Part shown: one piece after another, positions 9,770 through 54,607 of the stretch
How positions within the stretch are numbered: position 1 is the first letter of the stretch
How the letters are laid out: each line of letters begins with the position of its first letter
DNA from: a virus
Virus record (IMG/VR): IMGVR_UViG_3300021420_000042
Coordinates: 1-55,061 of that record
Length of the DNA stretch: 55,061 nt
Direction: 5' to 3' (one strand)
The notes under the pieces: model-generated
The model's input: the letters and a program-made list of their open reading frames with translations, nothing else
The model's database searches: none
Told to the model about the DNA's origin: nothing
Made by a program: the position numbers and the translations under genes

Positions 9770-9861
9770 GACCTTTGCGTAACCGGTCTAACTCCGGCAC
9801 GTCATTGCCCGGTGCCGGTTGCGGGTATAGAGCCGCACTATCAAACAAATAATAAACCGTT

Positions 9862-9884
9862 CGTTCCCTTGTCCAGCGATGGAG
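9862..9884 (+). promoter_or_regulatory. Shared leader element (block 1 plus Shine-Dalgarno block)
   Basis: CGTTCCCTTGTCC followed by GATGGAG, just before the ATG at 9890. It is a variant of the leader element found before five other genes. The A-to-G and C-to-U differences from the consensus still allow G-U pairing with the antisense copy at 52317-52341. Confidence 0.5.
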
Positions 9885-9889
9885 TTCAT

Positions 9890-11194
9890 ATGGCACCGCC
9901 CAACGGGAAGGCGAAGCAAGTTCTTTTGCATACGGAATCCGGCCGCTTCGGCTCGACCCTGACCGACGATGAGATCAGCAACGCAGTTGATGTACTCACT
10001 GCGCACGACGGCAACGCCTCCGCGGCGGCGCGCTCGATCGGCATGCCAGAGACATCATTCCAACGGCGCGTGAAGGCCGCGGCCGAGCGTGGCCTGCTTG
10101 GCACGATTCCGGTGCTACCTGGTTACTTTATCAAGAACACCTCGACCCAGCTTGGGCCTGACGGCGAACTGCAGCGCGAATGGATCAGGCAGGCCAAGGA
10201 GCCTGGCGAGACATTCGAGATGCCGGCCGGCCATATCATCAAGGGTATCTCGGCATTGGTCGGCGGCGACGGCCGCACCATGCAGCAATGGGTCAAGACC
10301 CGCAACGATCAGGACAACATAGACTGGGTCGAGGTTCTTAAAAACGCCTTCGCCGAATACAAGGGACGCGCCAAGCCGATCAAAGCGCCGCTGCGCGCCG
10401 ACAAAGATTTTCTCAATCTCATTCCGTGCAACGACTGGCACATCAACATGCTGACCTGGTGGCGCGAGGTCGGCGAAAGCTGGGACTTGAAGATTGCCGA
10501 GCGCGTCATTGGCGAAGCCATCGATGTCGTGATCGGCCGCACCAGGCCGGCCGGCACTGCCGTCGTGCTGGGCGGCGGCGATCTGATGCACAACGATGAC
10601 AACACCAATCGCACCGCCAAGTCGCACAACTTGCTCGACGCCGATGGGCGCCACGAAAAGGGTGTCGAGGTGGCGCAGCGCCTGATGGTCCGCACCATCG
10701 AAGCGGCACTGCGCCACAACAAAAAGGTGATCGTGCGAATCCTCAAGGGCAATCACGACGAATATTCGTCTGTTGCCATCGCGCACTTTCTCAAGGCGTG
10801 GTTTCACAACGAACCAAGGATCAAAGTCGATCTCGATGGCTCGCTGTTCTGGTGGTATCGGTTCGGGTCTGTGTTGCTTGGTGCCACGCACGGCCACACC
10901 GTCAAGATTTCCCAGATGCCTGGCATCATGGCGACGCGCCGTGCCGAGGACTGGGGCCAGACAAAATTCCGTTACGTGCATGGCTTCCACATTCACCACA
11001 AGGAAAAGATCGCCACCGAAGGCGAAGGCGTGATCTGCGAGACCCATCAAGCGCCGATCCCGCAGGACGGTTTTAATTTCGGGTCCGGTTATCTGGCCGG
11101 CCGTTCGGTGCAGACCATCACGTACCACAAGGACATCGGCGAGCATGGCCGCACGCGTGAGGCCATCATGGATGCAAGCGTGGTGGGCCGATGA
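9890..11194 (+). CDS. Calcineurin-like metallophosphoesterase with N-terminal helix-turn-helix
   Basis: 434 residues from the ATG at 9890 (GGAG five bases upstream; a longer frame to 9812 lacks a Shine-Dalgarno). Residues about 20-65 form a helix-turn-helix (TDDEISNAVDVLTAHDGNAS, then ARSIGMPETSFQRRV). The phosphoesterase domain shows all metal motifs: NDWHIN, GGGDLMH, LKGNHDE, THGH and HGFHIHH. Proteins with this architecture are common in phages of alphaproteobacteria, sometimes labelled oxidoreductase or DNA-binding. The combination suggests a nuclease or phosphodiesterase acting on DNA. Its TGA overlaps the next ATG, so it heads the operon that ends at 13863. Confidence 0.75.
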   Translation: MAPPNGKAKQVLLHTESGRFGSTLTDDEISNAVDVLTAHDGNASAAARSIGMPETSFQRRVKAAAERGLLGTIPVLPGYFIKNTSTQLGPDGELQREWIRQAKEPGETFEMPAGHIIKGISALVGGDGRTMQQWVKTRNDQDNIDWVEVLKNAFAEYKGRAKPIKAPLRADKDFLNLIPCNDWHINMLTWWREVGESWDLKIAERVIGEAIDVVIGRTRPAGTAVVLGGGDLMHNDDNTNRTAKSHNLLDADGRHEKGVEVAQRLMVRTIEAALRHNKKVIVRILKGNHDEYSSVAIAHFLKAWFHNEPRIKVDLDGSLFWWYRFGSVLLGATHGHTVKISQMPGIMATRRAEDWGQTKFRYVHGFHIHHKEKIATEGEGVICETHQAPIPQDGFNFGSGYLAGRSVQTITYHKDIGEHGRTREAIMDASVVGR

Positions 11195-14458: not shown

Positions 14459-15138
14459 TCGACGCGCCCGTTTTCGCCGATCTCTCTGGCCACGATCGCC
14501 TCGATCTGATCTGCCGGCACGCCCTTGGCGACCAACTTGGTGCGAAGCTCGGTTTCGGTCGGCTTGCGATGCGGCTCTGGATATTTGGCCGGATCGATCT
14601 CGCTGCACCAGCCCGCGAACGCCGCCTCATCGAATTTGTCCCCGGCGTAGTGCGCCGCGATTTCTCTGATCCGCTCGATCGGCACCGGTTCGCTGCCGAC
14701 ATGGTCATCATCGTGCCATTCCATATTGGTGATGCCGTGGCGCAGGATGCCGGCCGTGCGATCGGAGTCGAGCAGGAAGCCATAGGCCAGGTTGCTGGCG
14801 CGCAATTCGCGCCGCAGCGTTACGGTGCGGTGATAGTGCGCGTCGTAATATCGCGCTTCGCTGTCCTCGATCATCGGTGCGGGCGGCGCGTCCAGCATGA
14901 CGTTGGTCTGTGTTGCGACGCCGATCAGCGCCTTATAGGTGCTGGCCGCGATGGGCCGCTGTTTGGCGCGCTCGATATATTTTTGAATGTGGTTCTTTGG
15001 AATACGGCCTGCGGCAAGTTTTTGCCGCAGGCTCAATTCCTGTGTCGCGCTCAGCGCGACGTATTCCACTTTGACCCGAACATGTCTCGATTCCAATACG
15101 AGACCGGCGATGCGCGCTTTCAATTTCCATGACCTCAT
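14455..15138 (-). CDS. Hypothetical protein
   Basis: 227 residues. A good ribosome-binding site (GAGGTGAGG) precedes the ATG. The protein is mixed alpha/beta and charged, without membrane segments. Its C-terminus (TETELRTKLVAKGVPADQIE) looks like a small helical bundle, and its centre has a His/Asp-rich stretch (YYDAHYHRTVTLRREL and MEWHDDDHVG). No family recognised. It lies in a leftward set of small phage genes with overlapping stops and starts. Confidence 0.6.
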   Translation of the reverse strand: MRSWKLKARIAGLVLESRHVRVKVEYVALSATQELSLRQKLAAGRIPKNHIQKYIERAKQRPIAASTYKALIGVATQTNVMLDAPPAPMIEDSEARYYDAHYHRTVTLRRELRASNLAYGFLLDSDRTAGILRHGITNMEWHDDDHVGSEPVPIERIREIAAHYAGDKFDEAAFAGWCSEIDPAKYPEPHRKPTETELRTKLVAKGVPADQIEAIVAREIGENGRVE

Positions 15139-20981: not shown

Positions 20982-21095
20982 TCACGTATATTTAACCGCG
21001 TCGGGACCGGCGTCGTCAAGGGGCCTGAATTGGAACTCCGTCGCGCCAGTGTTGGTTTGGATGCCCCACTGAGAAAAGTCAGGTGCGGTCCGCAT
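20982..21095 (-). CDS. Possible 37-residue small protein
   Basis: MRTAPDFSQWGIQTNTGATE, then FRPLDDAG. The composition is protein-like and the TEFQFRPL stretch recalls small phage proteins of the kind at 21879. It would lie just upstream of RlpA. The ATG follows GGAG with almost no spacing, and the operator overlaps its last codons, so it may be a chance frame. Confidence 0.3.
   Translation of the reverse strand: MRTAPDFSQWGIQTNTGATEFQFRPLDDAGPDAVKYT
20985..21019 (-). promoter_or_regulatory. Leftward promoter with operator for rlpA-dnaB
   Basis: On the minus strand: TTGACG (21019-21014), an 18-base spacer, TTAAAT (20995-20990). The operator variant CGGTTAAATATACG (20998-20985) covers the -10 region. 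This places rlpA and dnaB under the same control as the other early units. From 21096 to 21280 I see no gene. Confidence 0.55.
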
Positions 21096-29675: not shown

Positions 29676-30130
29676 CACTGTATCAGTTCATCGATCCGGC
29701 GCTGTTCTTTCGCGGCAGTGACGATCTCGGCGAACGTTGGCTTGCGGCCTTTGGCCAGTTCCAGCTTTTTGTATTCCTCGACCGCCATGTCCATTTCGGC
29801 GCGTTCGGCGTTGGAAAAAAACGCCCTGTTTTCTGGTGACGGCATGAAGCCGGTTCGGACGTAGATATAGACCAGGGCCGGAGATTGGTCGCCAGCGCCG
29901 CACGCTTCCATGGCTTTTAATATTTCCGTTTCCACTTTGTCGGCGTTCATTGCGACCGGCGTGTTGCCAGGTGCGTCAGGATCGAACATGACCGGTTCGC
30001 CAGGCAAGGGGTCGCGGCCAAAGCGCTTTTTGAAACGCTTGTGACTGGCGTCCAGCGCCTTTTGTAGACGCGGGTGATCGGACCCCGGAATGATACGCCC
30101 CATGGCGTCGCGTAAGTCGATTTTGTTCAT
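29675..30130 (-). CDS. Hypothetical protein
   Basis: 151 residues. DHPRLQKALDASHKRFKKRF followed by GRDPLPGEPVMFDPDAPG, a helical middle with PALVYIYVRTGFMPSPEN, and EYKKLELAKGRKPTFAEIV. The ATG overlaps the integrase stop region, so it is cotranscribed with integrase. No family recognised. Confidence 0.55.
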   Translation of the reverse strand: MNKIDLRDAMGRIIPGSDHPRLQKALDASHKRFKKRFGRDPLPGEPVMFDPDAPGNTPVAMNADKVETEILKAMEACGAGDQSPALVYIYVRTGFMPSPENRAFFSNAERAEMDMAVEEYKKLELAKGRKPTFAEIVTAAKEQRRIDELIQ

Positions 30131-31290
30131 TGCACTATTCCTTCAATATGTGCGGCGAGCTTGTCGAGCGCCGCGCGTTTTTCGTCGGCGTATTCATATA
30201 GGTCATAAACGCCACGGACGCCACCGATAACGTGTCCGATCACGCGTTCGGCAATGTCCGGCGTAGCATAGCGCGACATGACGCTGCGCGCGGTGCGGCG
30301 CAGATCGTGTAACGTCCAGTGCGGCATTGGCCGCTTACGTCCGCGCAAGTCCGCGAGTGTCTTGTCCAGTGCCTTCTTGGCCTTGCTGTATCCGCTGAAC
30401 GGCGTCTTGCCGTCATCGCTGGAAAACAAGAAGCCACGACGATTGCCGAATAGGCGTTGTAAGGCTGACGTGATCGGAACGAGATGCGGCTTTTTGTGTT
30501 TCATGCGGGACCCTGGAATGACCCACTGGTCTCCCGCAATTTCCTCGCGATGAATGTGCGACACGTTGGTGCGGCGTTGACCGCTCAATAGCAACGCCCG
30601 GATAAAAGCGGGATAGCTGGCCGGCACCTGATCGCCAACCAGGTCGAGCGCTGCCCACAGATCGCGGATTTCTTGATCGTTCAAAAAGCGAGCGCGCTGG
30701 CGTTCGCTGGGTTTGGTCCTGGCTTTGATCATTGGCGGTCGGAAATCGTCGTCGCGATCGGCGTGCCAGCGAAACGCGGCGCGTATATAGGCCAACGCTC
30801 TGTCGGCCATCACTGGTCCGCTGTCATCGGTGATGTCATCGTGCAGGCCAGCAAGGTCGGATTTTTTCAAATCATAAATCGAGCGCTTGCCAAGTTTCGG
30901 GCGCACCAACCGATCAAAGGCGCTGGCGATAGCTGGCGCGCTCCGCAACGCACGGCCGTGGACCTCGCGTTTGATGTAGTTGTCGAGCAGCGCGTTGACG
31001 GTGTTTTCGGCAGCGGTTTCTTGCTTGGCGCGCTCTGCGATAGGGTCGCGATTGTCGGCGATTTCGCCGCTGCGCTTTTTGGCCAGGACACGCGCCTCAT
31101 CCGCCGTGATTGATCCGTGTCGGCCAAGCCGATAAGGTCTGCGCTGACCGTCGCCGTTGCGGTAGCGCAGATCATACACGACCGCGCCGCTGGCCAAGCA
31201 GCGGGCGCGAAAGCCGATGATCTCGGTATCGGCGATGGTCTGTCCAGGCTGCAAGGCGTCGATGAAACGCTTGGAAATTCGGGCTTTCAT
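30127..31290 (-). CDS. int: Tyrosine-type phage integrase
   Basis: 387 residues from the ATG at 31290 (an upstream frame to 31377 has no better start). The N-terminal arm-binding region (ISKRFIDALQPGQTIADTEI) and the AP2-like YRNGDGQRRPYRLGRHGSIT stretch are followed by a core-binding domain and the catalytic domain: Arg near 240 (LLLSGQRRTN), HDLRRT at 328-333, the GHVIGGVRG His near 353, and Tyr near 362 (GVYDLYEY). It recombines attP with a host tRNA-Lys gene; the tRNA fragment lies just upstream of its start. Confidence 0.92.
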   Translation of the reverse strand: MKARISKRFIDALQPGQTIADTEIIGFRARCLASGAVVYDLRYRNGDGQRRPYRLGRHGSITADEARVLAKKRSGEIADNRDPIAERAKQETAAENTVNALLDNYIKREVHGRALRSAPAIASAFDRLVRPKLGKRSIYDLKKSDLAGLHDDITDDSGPVMADRALAYIRAAFRWHADRDDDFRPPMIKARTKPSERQRARFLNDQEIRDLWAALDLVGDQVPASYPAFIRALLLSGQRRTNVSHIHREEIAGDQWVIPGSRMKHKKPHLVPITSALQRLFGNRRGFLFSSDDGKTPFSGYSKAKKALDKTLADLRGRKRPMPHWTLHDLRRTARSVMSRYATPDIAERVIGHVIGGVRGVYDLYEYADEKRAALDKLAAHIEGIVQ

Positions 31291-31298
31291 CAAACCAT

Positions 31299-31319
31299 CC
31301 GTGGTCCCGCTGTGGTCCC
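31299..31319 (+). repeat. Predicted arm-type integrase site, left arm
   Basis: GTGGTCCC-GCT-GTGGTCCC preceded by CC. The identical 21-bp sequence occurs at 31563-31583 in the same orientation, on the other side of the core. Each contains two direct GTGGTCCC units, as arm-type sites often do. Confidence 0.65.
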
Positions 31320-31412
31320 AGTCTGGCGGTATTCGCGAGATTTTTGGGTAACAGCAAGTAACCAGGAAGATAACCATAAAGTTCCATTTTTCAATAGCTT
31401 ACGTCAAACACC

Positions 31413-38412: not shown

Positions 38413-38444
38413 CGTATAATTAACCGTCTCCTATTCCCTGTCAA
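38413..38444 (-). promoter_or_regulatory. Leftward promoter with operator
   Basis: On the minus strand: TTGACA (38444-38439), 17 bases, AATTAT (38421-38416). The operator CGGTTAATTATACG (38426-38413), identical to the one at 44372, overlaps the -10 region. It would drive the genes from 38.2 kb leftwards. Confidence 0.65.
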
Positions 38445-40204: not shown

Positions 40205-41364
40205 TGCACCAACTCGAATCCGTCATCCACTTTGGCGACGGCTTGCTGGCCGTTGCCGTTCGGTTGCTTGAGTCCTTTGGCGATGCAATCGATCTCAGCT
40301 TTGACATCAAGCGCGTCGGCTTTGTGCATGGCCCAGAACCGGGTCATGCCTTCTCTGTTGCGCAACTGCATCGATGCCAGTTCATCTAGCGTCGAAGCAT
40401 TGCGTGCCGCGGTCAGGACGGTGTCGCCGTAAGCGCCGGCCGCAACAAAGACCAGCGTGCCTTGGTGATCGACCCAAGGATATTCGTCCTTGGACATGCC
40501 GACCGCTTTGGCGCGGCGTTCCGATTGCTCGATCTCGATCATCTCGGCTGCGGTCCAATCCGACGCGATGGTTTTGGCCATCGTTTCCTCGGTCTCGACG
40601 CCGGCCCAATGCTCTGGCCAGCCTGCCGTCAGGCCGCGCACCGTGGCGCATTTTGACAACATGACGCGCGCCATCTTGCCCCACTGTCCCGACGTATCGA
40701 GGATCATGTGGTCGGCCGGATTCATGCCTTCCTTGAGTTGCCGCCTATTGATGGCCTTGCCGGAATCCTCGTAGACCTCGCCAGTTGGCACCCATTCATA
40801 AATATTCGGGTCCGCCTTGAGCGGAGCAAACTCGGTCCAGAACGCTTCGCCAGCGACCGGCTCGCCGCCCTTGTAAAGCTTGGTCTCGACTTTGAGCAGG
40901 CCGGCCGGGTTGTTCGGATCGGCCGGCATGTTGTCGTTGAACTCTTGCGTGAGCGCTGAGCGCATGTCTTTGGCGAACACGCATGCGATCTCGCCAAGCT
41001 TTTTCTGTCGGGCCAGTTCATAGGCCGTGTACGTGTAGACCGTGTCGCCGGGTTTGGCCGGATGATAGTCGCCGCAGCGCGCCGCCAGCACGCGCTGGCC
41101 GGCCTGGGTTGTGATGATGGTCGGCTTGCGGCGCTTGGGCGCCTCGCCTTGCTTGCGGCGTTTGTTCTCGTCGCCGTACACGATCATGATCAGGTGACCG
41201 AGAAACGGATCGAGTTGCTTGGCGATGGCATACTGAATGAACATCTCGAATTCAGAATCCGTCGCGTCCGGACAGATGGTCCGGCGCATGGTCTCAAGCT
41301 GGCGCGGTTGCCAGTGGCCAAGCCGCAGGCTTGCGGCTTCGACGCGGGTCAATTGCTGGTTCAT
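40201..41364 (-). CDS. Bet/RecT-type single-strand annealing protein
   Basis: 387 residues from the ATG at 41364; an in-frame TTG further up sits on the Shine-Dalgarno. The Bet pattern is clear: TMRRTICPDATDSEFEMFIQ, then AIAKQLDPFLGHLIMIVYGD, and later KMARVMLSKCATVRGLTAGW followed by PEHWAGVETEETMA. It anneals complementary single strands in phage recombination. No matching exonuclease was recognised in the window; SSB is the likely partner. Its leader carries the shared element at 41389-41399. Confidence 0.85.
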   Translation of the reverse strand: MNQQLTRVEAASLRLGHWQPRQLETMRRTICPDATDSEFEMFIQYAIAKQLDPFLGHLIMIVYGDENKRRKQGEAPKRRKPTIITTQAGQRVLAARCGDYHPAKPGDTVYTYTAYELARQKKLGEIACVFAKDMRSALTQEFNDNMPADPNNPAGLLKVETKLYKGGEPVAGEAFWTEFAPLKADPNIYEWVPTGEVYEDSGKAINRRQLKEGMNPADHMILDTSGQWGKMARVMLSKCATVRGLTAGWPEHWAGVETEETMAKTIASDWTAAEMIEIEQSERRAKAVGMSKDEYPWVDHQGTLVFVAAGAYGDTVLTAARNASTLDELASMQLRNREGMTRFWAMHKADALDVKAEIDCIAKGLKQPNGNGQQAVAKVDDGFELVQ

Positions 41365-41373
41365 TGTTTTTCG

Positions 41374-41399
41374 TAGCTCCAATTCGAGGTAAGGGAACG
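41374..41399 (-). promoter_or_regulatory. Shared leader element before the annealing protein gene
   Basis: On the minus strand CGTTCCCTTACC (41399-41388), then CGAATTGGAG (41385-41376) carrying the Shine-Dalgarno. Both blocks match the complement of the putative RNA at 52317-52341 (11 bases, then CGAAT and TGGAG). Confidence 0.55.
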
Positions 41400-41415: not shown

Positions 41416-42138
41416 TTATTTGCGGCGGACGATCAGATTCTTGCCTCCGCTTTCGATGCGAGCGCCCGGTATCAGCGGGAAGCGCGCCAGGATTTTTTCG
41501 ATCGCCGCGAGCGCCGCGTCCGGATCGTTGATGCCGTTCAGTTCGGCGACCGCCAGATCACGGTCGTTATGATGCGGCAATGCCGGATCGGTCAGGATCG
41601 ATTTCAGTTCGGCGACGCGCGCCGTGACATCGCCAAGCCTGTTGGCCGTGGCGACGCGGTCGCGCAATGCCTTGAGCGCTTTGCCCAGTTCGGTCTTGAC
41701 CAGCACCGGATCGGGGCGCTTCCAGAATTGCGACGGGATGGCGGACTCGTCATCGATCACGATCTTGTCGGCGGCATCCGCCAGCGAGATGGTGCCGAGC
41801 GGGGTTTCCTGCTTTTTCCATTCCGCCACCGTCATGGCCTGTTCGATCATGCCGCGGCGCGACGCGACGCGTTTGGTCAAGCGGGCCTGACGGCCGGCAA
41901 GTTCGGTAACGCGCGCCTGGATACCGGTGATCAAAATCAAATCTTCATCTTCGGCACCGAGCGCCTTGGTCAATTCCAGTTCCAGCGTGGTTTCGCCGTC
42001 GAACGAGTCTTGCAGGACTCGTTCATCGTCCGGCGACAAGGGTTCGCCGGCTTCGCTGCGGACCATTTTGGCGATGTTGAGGCGCAGCGTTTTTGCCGCC
42101 TCGATGGCGCGATGCAGATTCTGCGGTTCGGCAGACAT
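41416..42138 (-). CDS. Gp157-like phage protein
   Basis: 240 residues from the ATG at 42138 (GGAG upstream). The second half carries the Siphovirus Gp157 pattern: SLADAADKIVIDDESAIPSQ, then FWKRPDPVLVKTELGKALKA and the end IPGARIESGGKNLIVRRK. An extra segment (about 180-215) separates the two parts. Gp157 proteins have been linked to phage resistance and early DNA functions, and often lie next to annealing proteins, as here. Confidence 0.75.
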   Translation of the reverse strand: MSAEPQNLHRAIEAAKTLRLNIAKMVRSEAGEPLSPDDERVLQDSFDGETTLELELTKALGAEDEDLILITGIQARVTELAGRQARLTKRVASRRGMIEQAMTVAEWKKQETPLGTISLADAADKIVIDDESAIPSQFWKRPDPVLVKTELGKALKALRDRVATANRLGDVTARVAELKSILTDPALPHHNDRDLAVAELNGINDPDAALAAIEKILARFPLIPGARIESGGKNLIVRRK

Positions 42139-42144
42139 GTTGAC

Positions 42145-42170
42145 TCCATCATTAGTCGTGTAAGGGAACG
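42145..42170 (-). promoter_or_regulatory. Shared leader element before the Gp157-like gene
   Basis: On the minus strand CGTTCCCTTAC (42170-42160) and TAATGATGGAGT with the Shine-Dalgarno, a few bases before the ATG at 42138. It has the longest second-block match to the antisense copy at 52317-52341 (AATGATGGAGT, 11 bases). Confidence 0.6.
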
Positions 42171-42882: not shown

Positions 42883-42910
42883 TATATAGCACGTATAATT
42901 ATACGGTCAA
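42883..42910 (-). promoter_or_regulatory. Leftward early promoter with palindromic operator
   Basis: On the minus strand TTGACC (42910-42905), 16 bases, TATATA (42888-42883). The spacer holds the perfect 14-bp palindrome CGTATAATTATACG (42892-42905), the clearest of the operator elements. It lies near the repressor gene and would silence the recombination operon in a lysogen. Confidence 0.65.
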
Positions 42911-42924
42911 GGACCTGGGGATTT

Positions 42925-43494: not shown

Positions 43495-44304
43495 TTAGTG
43501 TATCGCGCGATATTGCGCGATGACGATGGCGACGATCTCGGTGATTTCGCCGCTGCCATTGCCGACCACCAGCGTTTTTTGGACGTTGCTCCGCTGATCG
43601 TCGGACTCGCTAGTCAACAACCATCGCGACTTGGTGCTGGGCTTGGTCGGCGTCTCAACGAGGCGCCGCACCGTGCTTTCGCGCGAGCCGTCCGACTTTT
43701 TTGTTCTGGTGACAAAGACCAGATCGTTGGGGCGTGGCTTGAGCTTGGACGCGCGCAAATCCACGGCGATCAGGAAATCGCCAGGCTGGGCGAAGCGATT
43801 GACCGAGGTGTCCGCCACCGCAATGGCGTATTGATATTTCGGCGGGTAGCGCGGATCACACGGCACCTCTGGGCCGGCAGGCGGCACTTGATCGACCTCG
43901 CGCCACACGCCGGCTTCGGCAATTTTCAGGACCGGAATGTGCGATGCGGTTACGGCATAGCCGTTCTTGACCCGCTTATGCAGCGCGGCCTTCGGATCGA
44001 TTTGTTCTGGCCCGACGCCCGACATCAGCCATTCCGGCGTGGTGAGTAGCGTGACGGCCAAGCGCGACAGGGTGCGGTCGGTAATGCCTTTTTGCGTTCC
44101 TTCCTTGAACTGGCGGAACGTCGTGTAGAGCATGTCGGCCGAAAAGCCTGCCGCCAGCGAAGCGCTGCGCTTTGACATGTCGAGGGCTTCGAGCCGCCGT
44201 TCGATGCGTTTCAAGATCGCGCCAAGGCCAGCCTTCTGGCGCGGCGCGGCGACCGATGCAGCGGTGGGGGTTGGGCGAAAGTCGGCCATCTGTTTGTAGA
44301 CCAT
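43495..44304 (-). CDS. S24-type phage repressor
   Basis: 269 residues. N-terminal HTH at about 28-90 (LGAILKRIERRLEALDMSKR, then SLAAGFSADMLYTTFRQF). The C-terminal LexA-like fold has an Ala-Gly before WREVD that resembles a cleavage site, DTSVNRFAQPGDFLIAVDLR with the expected nucleophile Ser, and ESTVRRLVE where the catalytic Lys of S24 proteins is normally found. Here that position appears to be Arg. The operators at 44372 and 42892 flank its surroundings, fitting a lambda CI-like role. The start could also be the ATG at 44289. Confidence 0.8.
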   Translation of the reverse strand: MVYKQMADFRPTPTAASVAAPRQKAGLGAILKRIERRLEALDMSKRSASLAAGFSADMLYTTFRQFKEGTQKGITDRTLSRLAVTLLTTPEWLMSGVGPEQIDPKAALHKRVKNGYAVTASHIPVLKIAEAGVWREVDQVPPAGPEVPCDPRYPPKYQYAIAVADTSVNRFAQPGDFLIAVDLRASKLKPRPNDLVFVTRTKKSDGSRESTVRRLVETPTKPSTKSRWLLTSESDDQRSNVQKTLVVGNGSGEITEIVAIVIAQYRAIH

Positions 44305-44362
44305 TCTAGCTGGGTTTAATCGTGGTGTTGAGCGGCGTAATCAATGGCACGTCGGCAGCCAC

Positions 44363-44391
44363 TTGACAGCACGGTTAATTATACGCATATT
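44363..44391 (+). promoter_or_regulatory. Rightward early promoter with operator
   Basis: TTGACA (44363-44368), 17 bases, CATATT (44386-44391). The operator CGGTTAATTATACG (44372-44385) fills the spacer. It would drive the operon 44660-52102. From 44392 to 44646 I see no supported gene; the leftward frame at 44341-44544 has no ribosome-binding site. Confidence 0.65.
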
Positions 44392-44646: not shown

Positions 44647-44667
44647 GGTTCCCTTGCTCATGATGGA
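44647..44667 (+). promoter_or_regulatory. Shared leader element overlapping the start of the DnaA-IV-like gene
   Basis: GGTTCCCTTGCTC then ATGATGGA, which is the start codon region itself. Differences from the consensus (A to G, C to U) keep pairing with the antisense copy through wobbles. Confidence 0.5.
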
Positions 44668-49306: not shown

Positions 49307-50262
49307 GCCGCATCCGCACCATCAAGCCGGAGTTCGTGCAGTCCGAATCCACGGGCAACCTGTCGCGCGACGCGCGGCTATTGTTCATCCTGATCTGGAC
49401 CATCGCCGACGATGTCGGGAGGACTCGCGCGGCCTCGCGAATGCTCGCGAGCGTTTTGTATCCCTACGACGACGACGTTCCGGACCTGATCGACGGCTGG
49501 CTCGACGAATTGGAGCAACGCGCGTGCATCCGCCGTTACGACGTTAATGGGGCACGTTATCTTGAAGTGGTCAACTGGTTGAAACATCAGAAGATTGATC
49601 ATCCGTCGCCGTCGCGGCTGCCGGCGTTTTCGGCCGGCCTCGCGAAGGTTCGCGAAGCCTCGCGAAGCCTCGCGCCTGACCTGGACCTTGGACCTGGACC
49701 TGGACCTCAAGACTCTCGGTCGGTCGCTGTCGCGACGCGACCACCCGATGAGATTTTTGAAGCGTTCTGGTCGGCCTACCCAAAACGGGAAGGATCAAAC
49801 CCAAGGAAGCCGGCGCGCACCAAGTTCCTATCGCTGTGCCGTGAGGGTGCCGATCCACTGGCCATCATCGCTGGCGTCAAGCGTTACGCCGAACAGGAAG
49901 CCAAGAACGTCGGCACGCCGTACATCAAGCGCGCCGTGCATTGGTTGAACCAATGGTCGCCGGAGGATGACGCGCCCTCGCCTGCCTTGACTGCGGCCAA
50001 GTCTGCCAAGTTCTTTGTTCACTTGGGCACGCCGGAATGGACGGCATGGGATAAATTTTTCCGCGCCACCAAAGGCGTCGGTCCGCCGCAGACCGACATC
50101 CGTTGGCCGGACCAGGATTCACCGCTGCGCCGCGGCTACATGTTCGACTCGCAATATCCACCAAACCAAAAACAAACGAACGTTCCCTTACCCAACGAAA
50201 GGACAAGTGATGGCGTCATTCAATCAAGTCATGCTGATCGGCAACCTGGGACAGGACCCTGA
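49303..50262 (+). CDS. Phage replication protein, O/DnaD-like
   Basis: 319 residues. The N-terminal winged helix begins MSRIRTIKPEFVQSESTGNL, then ARLLFILIWTIADDVGRTRA and SRMLASVLYPYDDDVPDLID, a standard start of phage replication initiators. A repetitive linker (GPGPGP, encoded by GGACCT repeats) leads to a DnaD-like helical domain, FEAFWSAYPKREG then KRYAEQEAKNVGTPYIKRAV. It probably recruits DnaB to the origin. The last 50 bases overlap the SSB gene. Confidence 0.75.
   Translation: MSRIRTIKPEFVQSESTGNLSRDARLLFILIWTIADDVGRTRAASRMLASVLYPYDDDVPDLIDGWLDELEQRACIRRYDVNGARYLEVVNWLKHQKIDHPSPSRLPAFSAGLAKVREASRSLAPDLDLGPGPGPQDSRSVAVATRPPDEIFEAFWSAYPKREGSNPRKPARTKFLSLCREGADPLAIIAGVKRYAEQEAKNVGTPYIKRAVHWLNQWSPEDDAPSPALTAAKSAKFFVHLGTPEWTAWDKFFRATKGVGPPQTDIRWPDQDSPLRRGYMFDSQYPPNQKQTNVPLPNERTSDGVIQSSHADRQPGTGP
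50181..50203 (+). promoter_or_regulatory. Shared leader element before the SSB gene
   Basis: CGTTCCCTTACCC then AACGAAAGGA. Twelve bases (GTTCCCTTACCC) match the complement of the RNA candidate at 52329-52340. It lies in the 3' end of the upstream gene, so it is under two constraints. Confidence 0.55.
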
Positions 50263-51032: not shown

Positions 51033-51614
51033 ATGGTGGAACCGGTCAAGTATTGGAAAGATGATGACGAACGCCGCGTCGCAGCCGCGTTGGGGCAGGC
51101 GCGCGATGCTTGGTTTGTGCGCGTCAAGAGCCTGCCTGACGGTCATGATCTGGTATTCCGGGTGATACAAAACGTGACGGATATTCATCGCCGCTCCAAA
51201 ATGAAAGGCGGCCCTGCCGGCAACCGATCGTGCTGGCCAGACTACGTCCACACTTGGGACGAACGCGAGGAAATGGCCAAGCAACAACGTATCGCCGAAG
51301 CCGCAGGCGAGGACCCTGATCTGATATTGGGTTTTGTGGTGGCACCTGGTCCGCAAGAGATTGCGATGATGGATTCGGTCAATCTGGTTTTTGAGTCTTG
51401 TTTGATCGGCGATAAACAGCCGCGTGACTGGAAACTTTTGCAGCGTTTCGCCGCTGGATTGACCGCAAAGCAAATCGCCAAGGAACTCCATATTAGTCAC
51501 AGTCGCGCGACTGATCGTAAGACGGTGCAGTGTCTGGCGATATGGCGCCGTGTCGATCGGCTCTTGCCGGCCGTCGCGCCGGCCTCGATCGTGTTGTGCG
51601 ACGAGGCGGCCTGA
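51033..51614 (+). CDS. HTH protein, DUF6362-like
   Basis: 193 residues from the ATG at 51033. Layout as in DUF6362 proteins: an N-terminal GQARDAWFVRVKSLPDG helix, a CWPDYVHTWDEREEMAKQQR stretch, PGPQEIAMMDSVNL, and a C-terminal HTH with RFAAGLTAKQIAKELHISHS. Probably a DNA-binding regulator near the end of the early operon, which could control late genes. Confidence 0.55.
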   Translation: MVEPVKYWKDDDERRVAAALGQARDAWFVRVKSLPDGHDLVFRVIQNVTDIHRRSKMKGGPAGNRSCWPDYVHTWDEREEMAKQQRIAEAAGEDPDLILGFVVAPGPQEIAMMDSVNLVFESCLIGDKQPRDWKLLQRFAAGLTAKQIAKELHISHSRATDRKTVQCLAIWRRVDRLLPAVAPASIVLCDEAA

Positions 51615-52102
51615 TGTCCAGGCATATCGGTTCGCCGTTTCGCAACAACGATATGCTCACGGCGATCAAAGACGAGTCTGTTGTGTTCTGCGCCATCTAC
51701 GGCATCGGCAAGCCGCATGGTCAAGGACCGGTGTGCATCGGTTATGTTGGCCACGACCACGATCGGGCAAGAGGCGAGCATGGCGGCGAGCGTGCCTTGG
51801 CCAATACGCTCAGTGCGTTTGATGGCGAGATCGCATTGGCGATAGCATGGGCTGTTGATTGGAAGCTAGCCAGAAGGGTCGTCAAGCGTTGTTACCAGCT
51901 TTTGAAAAGCGCCGGCAAAACCTCACATGATGGCTGGTACGCGATCAACAGATCGTGGGCCAAACGCGTTATCGCGACGGCCGCGGCGCTGGAACACATA
52001 CCGATCTATTCCAGCGGCGATCTCGATCGGTTGCGTGTCAGCAGGGCCGACTGGCATGAACGCGCGTTGCGCAAAAAGGCCGGCCTTGTGGCACCCCGTT
52101 GA
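51614..52102 (+). CDS. Hypothetical protein
   Basis: 162 residues. DESVVFCAIYGIGKPHGQGP, then CIGYVGHDHDRARGEHGGER, then a helical second half (LARRVVKRCYQLLKSAGKTS). The ATG overlaps the previous stop (TGATG). It is the last gene of the rightward early operon; the terminator at 52157 follows. Confidence 0.5.
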   Translation: MSRHIGSPFRNNDMLTAIKDESVVFCAIYGIGKPHGQGPVCIGYVGHDHDRARGEHGGERALANTLSAFDGEIALAIAWAVDWKLARRVVKRCYQLLKSAGKTSHDGWYAINRSWAKRVIATAAALEHIPIYSSGDLDRLRVSRADWHERALRKKAGLVAPR

Positions 52103-52133
52103 CTTAGTCTGCCTGAAAGCGTATAAATAACCG
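52099..52133 (+). promoter_or_regulatory. Rightward promoter with operator, no ORF behind it
   Basis: TTGACT (52099-52104), exactly 17 bases, TATAAA (52122-52127), overlapping the operator variant CGTATAAATAACCG (52120-52133). Transcripts would start near 52134 and meet the terminator at 52157 at once. Confidence 0.6.
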
Positions 52134-52156
52134 CATAATCACAGGCGTTCCGCACG

Positions 52157-52176
52157 CGGCCCAACGGGCCGTTTTT
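52157..52176 (+). terminator. Rho-independent terminator of the early operon
   Basis: CGGCCC, loop AAC, GGGCCG, then TTTTT. A perfect 6-bp GC stem with a T tract, 55 bases after the last gene of the operon. Confidence 0.8.
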
Positions 52177-52193
52177 CTTTATGCAGGAAGCAC

Positions 52194-52222
52194 TTGCGTA
52201 AACTGTTTTGGTTTCCTATATA
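52194..52222 (+). promoter_or_regulatory. Promoter-like sequence for the small-RNA candidate
   Basis: TTGCGT (52194-52199), 17 bases, TATATA (52217-52222). The spacing is ideal but the -35 is weak. It follows the operon terminator and points into the gene-free interval. Confidence 0.4.
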
Positions 52223-52228
52223 GAGCGC

Positions 52229-52382
52229 CTTACCTGATGTTGTTTGTCGAGTTGGATGTGAGCCACCCTGTGGGTTTAACCTTTTCCCACACAGGGGAGT
52301 GCCCCCAAACTTCTCTACTCCATCATTCGGGTAAGGGAACCAACTTGAACGGGGCGTCCGTCATGGACTGCCCCGTTTTTTT
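52229..52382 (+). ncRNA. Candidate trans-acting small RNA with anti-leader sequence
   Basis: About 154 bases without a supported gene, from a promoter-like start to a strong terminator. Visible parts: an imperfect hairpin CCCTGTGGG...CCCACACAGGG (52266-52296); the anti-leader block ACTCCATCATT (52317-52327) and GGGTAAGGGAAC (52329-52340); then the terminator stem (52348-52377). The two anti-leader blocks are the antisense of the leader shared by six phage genes and would cover their ribosome-binding regions. The frame at 52237 runs through the terminator and is not taken as a gene. An alternative is that this is an inverted relic of a leader from a lost leftward gene. Confidence 0.45.
52348..52382 (+). 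terminator. Strong terminator ending the small-RNA candidate
   Basis: AACGGGGC-GTCC, loop GTCAT, GGAC-T-GCCCCGTT, then TTTTT. Rightward orientation: the T run is on the plus strand, so it does not mainly serve the leftward genes that end at 52388. Confidence 0.8.
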
Positions 52383-52387
52383 GCGCG

Positions 52388-52633
52388 CTATTCGGCCGCG
52401 ATGCGGAACTCTGCCGGAACCGGCCACACCGGGCCGTGCTGGCGCGCCGCGCGGCGATTGGCCAGGACGCGGTCCTGATTGGTGCCAAGCCAATAGCGCC
52501 ACAGCGATAGCTCGTGCCGGGCTTGCGCTTGGACGTGGCGCACGATCCCGTCGCGGGTAGTCCAATAGTCCCAGTCCGGAATATCGAGCGTGCGGGCCAG
52601 CACGTCGCGGCAGACCGCGGCCTGATCGATCAT
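52388..52633 (-). CDS. Small hypothetical protein
   Basis: 81 residues from the ATG at 52633, overlapping the preceding stop (ATGA). MIDQAAVCRDVLARTLDIPD, then HELSLWRYWLGTNQDRVLAN. Helical, Trp/Arg-rich. An upstream extension of the frame is antisense-like. Function unknown. Confidence 0.5.
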   Translation of the reverse strand: MIDQAAVCRDVLARTLDIPDWDYWTTRDGIVRHVQAQARHELSLWRYWLGTNQDRVLANRRAARQHGPVWPVPAEFRIAAE

Positions 52634-52758: not shown

Positions 52759-52991
52759 GTGTACGGCTCCAAGTCTGAGAACAAGGCCGAACAGGCCAGC
52801 GCGACATAGAGCGGCGCGCCTTCGCGCTCATAGCCGATCAGCGCGGTGCGCGACATCCCCAATGCCTTGGCGGCATCGCGTTGCGACAGACCCATGTTGC
52901 GGCGCCACTTGCGTATTGCCTTGGCCGGTATCGGTCGCTCCATGGTCCAGCCCTTGCCGCGGCGATTGATCCTTGGCGGTTTCTTGCTCAT
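52755..52991 (-). CDS. Small XRE-family regulator
   Basis: 78 residues from the ATG at 52991 (GAGGAA upstream). Basic N-terminus (KKPPRINRRGKGW), then an HTH: AKAIRKWRRNMGLSQRDAAK, then MSRTALIGYEREGAPLY. It may act as a Cro-like or local regulator. It ends in an overlap with the next small gene. Confidence 0.75.
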   Translation of the reverse strand: MSKKPPRINRRGKGWTMERPIPAKAIRKWRRNMGLSQRDAAKALGMSRTALIGYEREGAPLYVALACSALFSDLEPYT

Positions 52992-53949: not shown

Positions 53950-54423
53950 TTACGCCGCCTGTCGTGTTGGCTCGCGCAAGCCTTGTCGTTCAAGCGCCAA
54001 TTTAAGCGCGTATGGCTGTTGCGCGTGTTTGGATTCCATAGCTTCCTCGTATAGTTCTTGCCAGACATGTGGCCAGCGTAGGCGCCGCTCGCTGGCCGCG
54101 CAATTGAGCAGCGCGTTGCGTTGCTGGCGTCGTACCGCTTCGTGGATGTCGGCGCCGTCAGGATATGGCGTGCCAGAGGCGCAATTGCATTTGGGGTTGA
54201 TGGGAGGCAGGCCGGATTTCATGGCGCTGCGTTGCATGGCCAGGATGGATTTTTCGACCGCGTCGCCGTAGGCGTGAACGTGGGTCTTGTCCCAAGATTT
54301 GAGGCCGCCGCTGCGGCGTGCGTTGCGCCGGAATTTCTCGACCGCGACGCCCAGCGACACCGGATAAAGCGGGCCGAATGGGGCGAGTATTTCAGGTGCT
54401 TGAATTTCCTTTTGCTGAAACAT
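53950..54423 (-). CDS. Hypothetical protein
   Basis: 157 residues from the ATG at 54423. PEILAPFGPLYPVSLGVAVE, then GGLKSWDKTHVHAYGDAVEK and a zinc-like INPKCNCASGTPYPDG; the C-terminus is helical (WPHVWQELYEEAMESKHAQQ). Its leader carries the shared element at 54438-54448, placing it in the same putative post-transcriptional group as SSB and the annealing protein. Confidence 0.5.
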   Translation of the reverse strand: MFQQKEIQAPEILAPFGPLYPVSLGVAVEKFRRNARRSGGLKSWDKTHVHAYGDAVEKSILAMQRSAMKSGLPPINPKCNCASGTPYPDGADIHEAVRRQQRNALLNCAASERRLRWPHVWQELYEEAMESKHAQQPYALKLALERQGLREPTRQAA

Positions 54424-54607
54424 TTTCAACTCCATTGGTAAGGGAACGAGGTTTCATTTTTTTGTTTGGTAGCGACTTGATGACGGTTTCGGCGATCATG
54501 CGCGCCAGCAACAATCGGGTTGGTGCATAGCCGCACATCCGATCAGGCCCGGTCGAGTTATAGCTAAAGCCGTCCGGATGTTCGCTGATCGTGATGGTGA
54601 TCGGCAT
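54392..54607 (-). CDS. Small hypothetical protein
   Basis: 71 residues: MPITITISEHPDGFSYNSTG, then LLLARMIAETVIKSLPNKKM. The last 32 bases overlap the next gene, and the shared leader element lies within them. Function unknown. Confidence 0.5.
   Translation of the reverse strand: MPITITISEHPDGFSYNSTGPDRMCGYAPTRLLLARMIAETVIKSLPNKKMKPRSLTNGVENVSAKGNSST
54425..54448 (-). promoter_or_regulatory. Shared leader element before the 54423 gene
   Basis: On the minus strand CGTTCCCTTACC (54448-54437), then AATGGAGT with the Shine-Dalgarno, a few bases before the ATG at 54423. It lies in the coding 3' end of the upstream small gene. Confidence 0.55.

Follow-up and report, generated by a model that had tools for sequence, protein, structure and literature searches.

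A candidate trans-acting small RNA in a temperate phage and its predicted pairing with a leader shared by six phage genes

The virus record IMGVR_UViG_3300021420_000042, analyzed here over its full 55,061 nt (the window), contains a leader sequence that stands, always in mRNA sense, before six unlinked genes, mostly of DNA metabolism, together with an antisense copy that shows strong and specific complementarity to these leaders and is accompanied by promoter, operator-like and terminator signals. We consider it fairly probable (about 0.7), judging from these sequence features, that the phage encodes a trans-acting RNA of about 155–160 nt (52227–52386, plus strand) that pairs through positions 52317–52341 with the six leaders and represses translation. 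This appears to be the best-supported of the readings we weighed, the rivals predicting neither the pairing nor the promoter and terminator signals.

The gene content of the window is that of a temperate tailed phage, with an integrase (30127–31377, minus strand), a CI-like repressor (43495–44304, minus strand), and genes for baseplate, endolysin, a DnaB-like helicase, a RuvC-like resolvase, a DNA methylase, a replication protein, SSB, a RecT-like annealing protein, a Gp157-like protein and a NinB/Orf-like protein. Because the relatives of its proteins often come from alphaproteobacterial phages, for example, those of Rhizobium and Sinorhizobium, the host is probably an alphaproteobacterium. 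No near nucleotide relative of the phage was found among phage records.

The leader, GTTCCCTTACC or a near variant, lies directly 5' of the ribosome-binding site at six gene starts (9890, 41364, 42138, 44660, 50210 and 54423). Exact copies of the core occur at 41388–41398 (-), 50182–50192 (+), 54437–54447 (-) and 52330–52340 (-), and variant cores at 42159–42169 (-), which ends in ACA, at 9863–9873 (+), with TTGTC, and at 44648–44658 (+), with TTGCT. A matrix built from the leaders scores these seven sites at 15.7–19.3 bits and everything else in the window at 11.1 or below; the core alone, with two mismatches allowed, yields 12 matches against 6.3 expected, modestly above chance. What carries the signal is that the copies are exact or nearly so, that they precede start codons and that an A-rich, G-poor tract lies directly 5' of all six leaders. 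These tracts hold 14–16 A per 30 nt, a content reached in at most 0.6% of windows, compared with an average of 6.6 A at 28 other starts, and ARN triplets in the tracts of all leaders exceed those at other gene starts (p = 2e-4). Given that the tract precedes every leader, the cassette consists of the A-tract, the core, placed within about 35 nt 5' of the start, and then the Shine-Dalgarno sequence or start. The antisense copy, with 5 A per 30 nt, has no such tract and abuts a terminator stem instead.

Among the individual leaders, that of the DNA repair exonuclease-like metallophosphoesterase (9863–9892, +; phrog_704, E 4.7e-96) is composed of the core GTTCCCTTGTC followed by GATGGAGT and the ATG at 9890, whereas that of the Gp157-like protein (42136–42169, -) joins the core to an 11-nt second block, AATGATGGAGT. 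The leaders of the RecT-like annealing protein (41362–41398, -) and SSB (50182–50212, +) are intra-operonic, occupying a short spacer or the overlap with a coding end; the SSB leader lies within the final part of the upstream replication gene. This placement fits an element that acts at the mRNA level. The remaining two precede the first gene of the right operon, which encodes a DnaA domain IV-like protein (44648–44662, +), and the uncharacterised gene 53950–54423 (54421–54447, -). Both direct reading of the sequence and the matrix scan confirm the positions and mRNA-sense orientation that a first-pass annotation had reported for the six leaders and the antisense copy. That annotation also described a second block around ATGGAGT, including the Shine-Dalgarno sequence, in most leaders; at 44660, however, the block (ATGATGGA) is the start codon region rather than a Shine-Dalgarno sequence, the SSB leader has a diverged AAAGGAC in place of ATGGAGT, and the core of the Gp157 leader is mismatched at its end (ACA).

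The reverse complement of the core plus the ATGGAGT block has a single occurrence in the window, as previously claimed, on the plus strand at 52317–52341 (ACTCCATCATTCGGGTAAGGGAACC), where 52317–52325 complements the second block and 52330–52340 the core. This candidate seed falls within the proposed RNA, which probably starts near 52228, 6–7 nt after the -10 box of a putative promoter, P2 (CTTGCG-N17-CTATAT; 52193–52221, +), and which is flanked by two plus-strand terminators. Upstream of P2, the terminator scan detected one at 52156–52172, following the last gene of the preceding rightward operon, ORF 51530–52102. The other, a GC-rich stem followed by 7 T at 52348–52382, was recognized by direct reading and its predicted stem, is absent from the list of the simple terminator scan, and ends a few bases short of the end of a convergent ORF. 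The promoter-like start and strong plus-strand terminator that had been proposed for this interval are accordingly present, and the promoter and intrinsic terminator expected of a trans-encoded base-pairing small RNA are both represented by sequence signals (at 52193 and 52099, and at 52156 and 52348, respectively).

The 160-nt RNA has a predicted folding energy of -62.7 kcal/mol (z -3.63), with none of 200 shuffles as stable, and in the predicted full-length fold nearly all of the seed core is base-paired to the 5' end of the same RNA. We rejected the idea that this 5'-end closing stem is a selected switch, as 397 of 2000 random 20-mers from the window did as well. In a covariance-model search with the proposed RNA, no Rfam family reached or approached its cut-off; the best plus-strand match, suhB/mmgR, reached 14.1 bits against a cut-off of 41 and mainly covered the terminator. 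Identity with 6S or another known RNA, considered for the long hairpin, was rejected given the lack of an Rfam match, and an ORF in the same interval (52237–52560, +) was dismissed as a protein gene, having neither a Shine-Dalgarno sequence nor a family match, crossing the terminator and overlapping a gene on the opposite strand. Elsewhere in the window, a sub-threshold match to the Rfam COG2908 motif lies at 52871–52907 (-) (26 bits, cut-off 58.7, E 0.0023), and the strongest predicted RNA structure for base composition, near -4 sd, at 14881–15120 (+).

P2 matches the alphaproteobacterial sigma-70 consensus, in Sinorhizobium meliloti CTTGAC-N17-CTATAT (PMC2873474), at 10/12, a score that also arises by chance at 5.9 sites expected per shuffled window. 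That this consensus suits the phage is indicated by a 12/12 match at the expected left early promoter (CTTGAC-N16-CTATAT; 42884–42911, -) and 10/12 matches both at the right early promoter (CTTGAC-N17-GCATAT; 44362–44390, +) and at its divergent partner (44490, -). The left early promoter, predicted to drive the Gp157 and RecT genes, carries a perfect palindrome, CGTATAATTATACG, in its spacer (42892–42905), and the right one, which would drive the genes from DnaA-IV to SSB, an operator-like CGGTTAATTATACG (44372–44385). A similar palindromic site, CGTATAAATAACCG (52120–52133), overlaps the -10 box of a second promoter-like site upstream of the proposed RNA, P1 (TTGACT-N17-TATAAA; 52099–52127, +; 10/12 to TTGACA/TATAAT). 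Including 20985–20998 and 38413–38426, the palindrome CGKWTAATTATACG occurs in five places, and its pattern has 8 matches in the window against 0.46 expected, a number reached by none of 100 shuffles. The copies lie at or near promoters, among them both early promoters and a position upstream of the helicase operon, and are probably the operators of the repressor. On the plus strand downstream of P1, past the 52156 terminator, there is only the proposed RNA, so that, provided that this terminator is read through, the operator-linked P1 supports a regulated transcription unit.

The complementarity itself was evaluated in several ways. An unbiased duplex scan that covered ~11,000 windows from both strands placed the leaders at ranks 1 (44660), 2 (9890), 3 (42138), 5 (50210), 18 (41364) and 43 (54423). 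Pairing of the antisense stretch with the six leaders ranged from -28.9 to -38.4 kcal/mol, compared with -22.1 for the best of 33 other gene starts, and the observed sum was reached by 0 of 2000 dinucleotide shuffles of the antisense sequence; the comparison with shuffled controls that had been suggested for the leaders came out in favor of the pairing. Because the shared core would by itself give pairing, the second block was tested separately; it averaged -13.5 versus -7.9 at other starts, which may also carry Shine-Dalgarno sequences (p = 0.001; 0 of 1000 shuffles). Thus, the antisense copy matches the leaders in two independent parts, and on the phage's own mRNAs the predicted pairing covers the Shine-Dalgarno sequence or the start codon. 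Trans-encoded small RNAs typically pair with unlinked mRNAs through short, imperfect matches at their ribosome-binding regions, and matches of this kind exceed the controls here. When self-structure is counted, the net gain falls, although five of the six leaders remain among the best 0.6% of 3650 windows; the 54423 leader then becomes unremarkable, with 253 background windows as good, and is the weakest predicted target. The earlier argument that variant leaders preserve G-U pairing stands insofar as 4 of the 5 core substitutions retain a wobble pair; since each of these four is a transition, however, the pattern lends weak support to conserved pairing.

The proposal that a trans-acting RNA tunes the DNA-metabolism genes is hence favored by the pairing, promoter and terminator, and weakened by a seed that is largely hidden in the predicted fold. 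This masking also fits the rival that fares best, although we regard it as unlikely, namely, that the cassette is a translation or mRNA-stability element recognized by ribosomes or by a protein such as S1, Hfq or a phage RNA-binding repressor, while the copy at 52330 is the relic of a lost minus-strand leader and has no function as an RNA. The succession of A-rich tract, pyrimidine core and Shine-Dalgarno sequence does resemble an unstructured translation enhancer or Hfq site, and in another phage (L033, below) the identical 21-mer is a real minus-strand leader. However, the minus-strand copy here lacks the A-rich tract and opens a reading frame that ends after three codons (ATG ATG GAG TAG); furthermore, it sits 3' of a promoter and just 5' of a strong plus-strand terminator, and its complementarity extends independently to the second block, none of which a relic would predict. 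Somewhat less likely still is an RNA that is real and acts otherwise, as an activator or stabilizer, as a sponge whose leader-like 5' end captures a partner, by premature termination, or mainly on mRNAs of the host or competing phages. The 5' end, CCUUACCUGAUG, does resemble the leaders, and the longest perfect complement, 21 nt, falls on the leader of the other phage; against this, the 5'-end stem does not outperform random 20-mers, and in the phage's own genes the pairing covers the Shine-Dalgarno sequence or the start codon, the usual geometry of translational repression. That the shared sequence acts as DNA, whether as a promoter element or as a site bound by a protein close to gene starts, is very improbable: it is a repeated non-coding motif in a window that holds other repeated DNA sites, but it is always in mRNA sense, within ~35 nt before the start and between A-tract and Shine-Dalgarno sequence, some copies lie inside operons or overlap a coding end, it is neither palindromic nor similar to sigma-70 hexamers, and the likely repressor operator is a different sequence.

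Under the preferred reading, a trans-acting repressor RNA, the target cassette before six genes in several operons would comprise the A-rich tract, GUUCCCUUACC and then the Shine-Dalgarno or start region. By pairing over the core and ribosome-binding site, the RNA would prevent translation and probably also destabilize the mRNAs, so that the DNA-metabolism genes of both early operons would be lowered together. The ARN-rich tract is probably a landing site for host Hfq or ribosomal protein S1. The small RNA is probably Hfq-assisted, of which the U7 tail and the ARN-rich target tracts are indirect signs, and, as we looked for an Hfq gene in the phage genome and found none, the host's Hfq would serve. 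From the signals described we infer transcription of the unit, its use of Hfq, repression rather than activation, and the timing of action, for which two uses can be envisaged: P2, which has no operator, might keep leaky early transcripts silent in the lysogen, and P1, with its operator, might shut off replication and recombination genes later in infection.

The proposed RNA has no sequence relation to any Rfam family and shares its organization with Hfq-dependent trans-encoded small RNAs, such as AbcR/MmgR of rhizobia, VpdS and PreS, which likewise have their own promoter, a seed and a rho-independent terminator with a U-tail, and whose targets carry A-rich tracts near the ribosome-binding sites, as do the six leaders. 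The C4 antisense RNA of P1 and P7 is, similarly, a phage RNA that controls phage genes through short antisense blocks. C4 pairs in two blocks at the ribosome-binding site and acts on one linked downstream operon, unlike the RNA proposed here, which would have six unlinked targets, spread over several operons and as far as about 42 kb away. In P1, C4 controls ant (PMC8201110), and the P22 sar and lambda OOP RNAs block translation or destabilize phage mRNA (PMC12197685). Each of the latter two is antisense to one linked gene, whereas the proposed RNA is trans-encoded, with short partial pairing to several. Trans-acting phage small RNAs are already known (VpdS, PreS and 24B_1), and VpdS and PreS have been reported to act mainly against host RNAs or against both host and phage RNAs (PMC12197685); in the present case, one RNA would face a near-identical leader repeated before six phage genes. 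In the open-access literature we found no description of a single phage RNA directed at a leader that recurs before several unlinked genes of the same phage. For most characterized phage antisense RNAs the target is one linked gene, and recent trans-acting ones have been studied mainly for host effects. The proposal, if true, would mean that phages build RNA-level regulons comparable to the operators of a repressor; it makes a prediction for six genes at once and suggests a search for repeated phage leaders whose complement occurs once before a terminator.

The early region, the proposed RNA and the 9890 upstream region were used in nucleotide searches for near and distant relatives among phage and plasmid records, and SSB, Gp157, RecT and the exonuclease in protein-based scans; neither approach found a phage carrying both leader and antisense copy. 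The motif is missing in relatives with homologous Gp157 or RecT genes, and k-mer counts detected no repeated leaders of different sequence in related phages. Pattern scans of 2.9 million viral contigs yielded one real further leader, L033, in a 54.5 kb phage (G001) otherwise without detectable relation to this one. Of the 32 contigs from a first 15-mer scan, a number about that expected by chance, L033 alone holds a real leader. Also discarded were L186, leader-like in appearance but probably a chance match, and 29 leader-pattern matches in bacterial genomes, scattered over phyla as is consistent with chance. The L033 leader (aaaaaaacaaaagttgGTTCCCTTACCcgaaCGGAGT...ATG, minus strand) has its own A-tract, and its 10638–10658 is a 21-mer identical to the complement of window 52326–52346, a perfect match longer than any between the proposed RNA and the phage's own leaders. 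In addition, a 42-bp block 5' of the G001 leader is shared with window 9770–9811, 5' of the 9863 leader (blastn E 5e-8); a search of G001 detected no antisense copy. With the two phages otherwise unrelated, these shared sequences suggest that the cassette moves between phages. As a broader and distinctly tentative idea, the RNA and a transplantable leader cassette may form a post-transcriptional regulon of the phage's own that coordinates separate operons and might also silence competitors using the cassette, the latter suggested by the 21-nt match to another phage's leader. A 25-bp block, GACCTTTGCGTAACCGGTCTAACTC, is common to window 9770–9794, L033 10720–10744 (-) and a third, otherwise unrelated phage (L149, around 1589–1613, -); in the last, it lies inside an HNH endonuclease-like gene, with a terminase small subunit-like ORF nearby, a context suggesting that the block may be a packaging or other DNA site.
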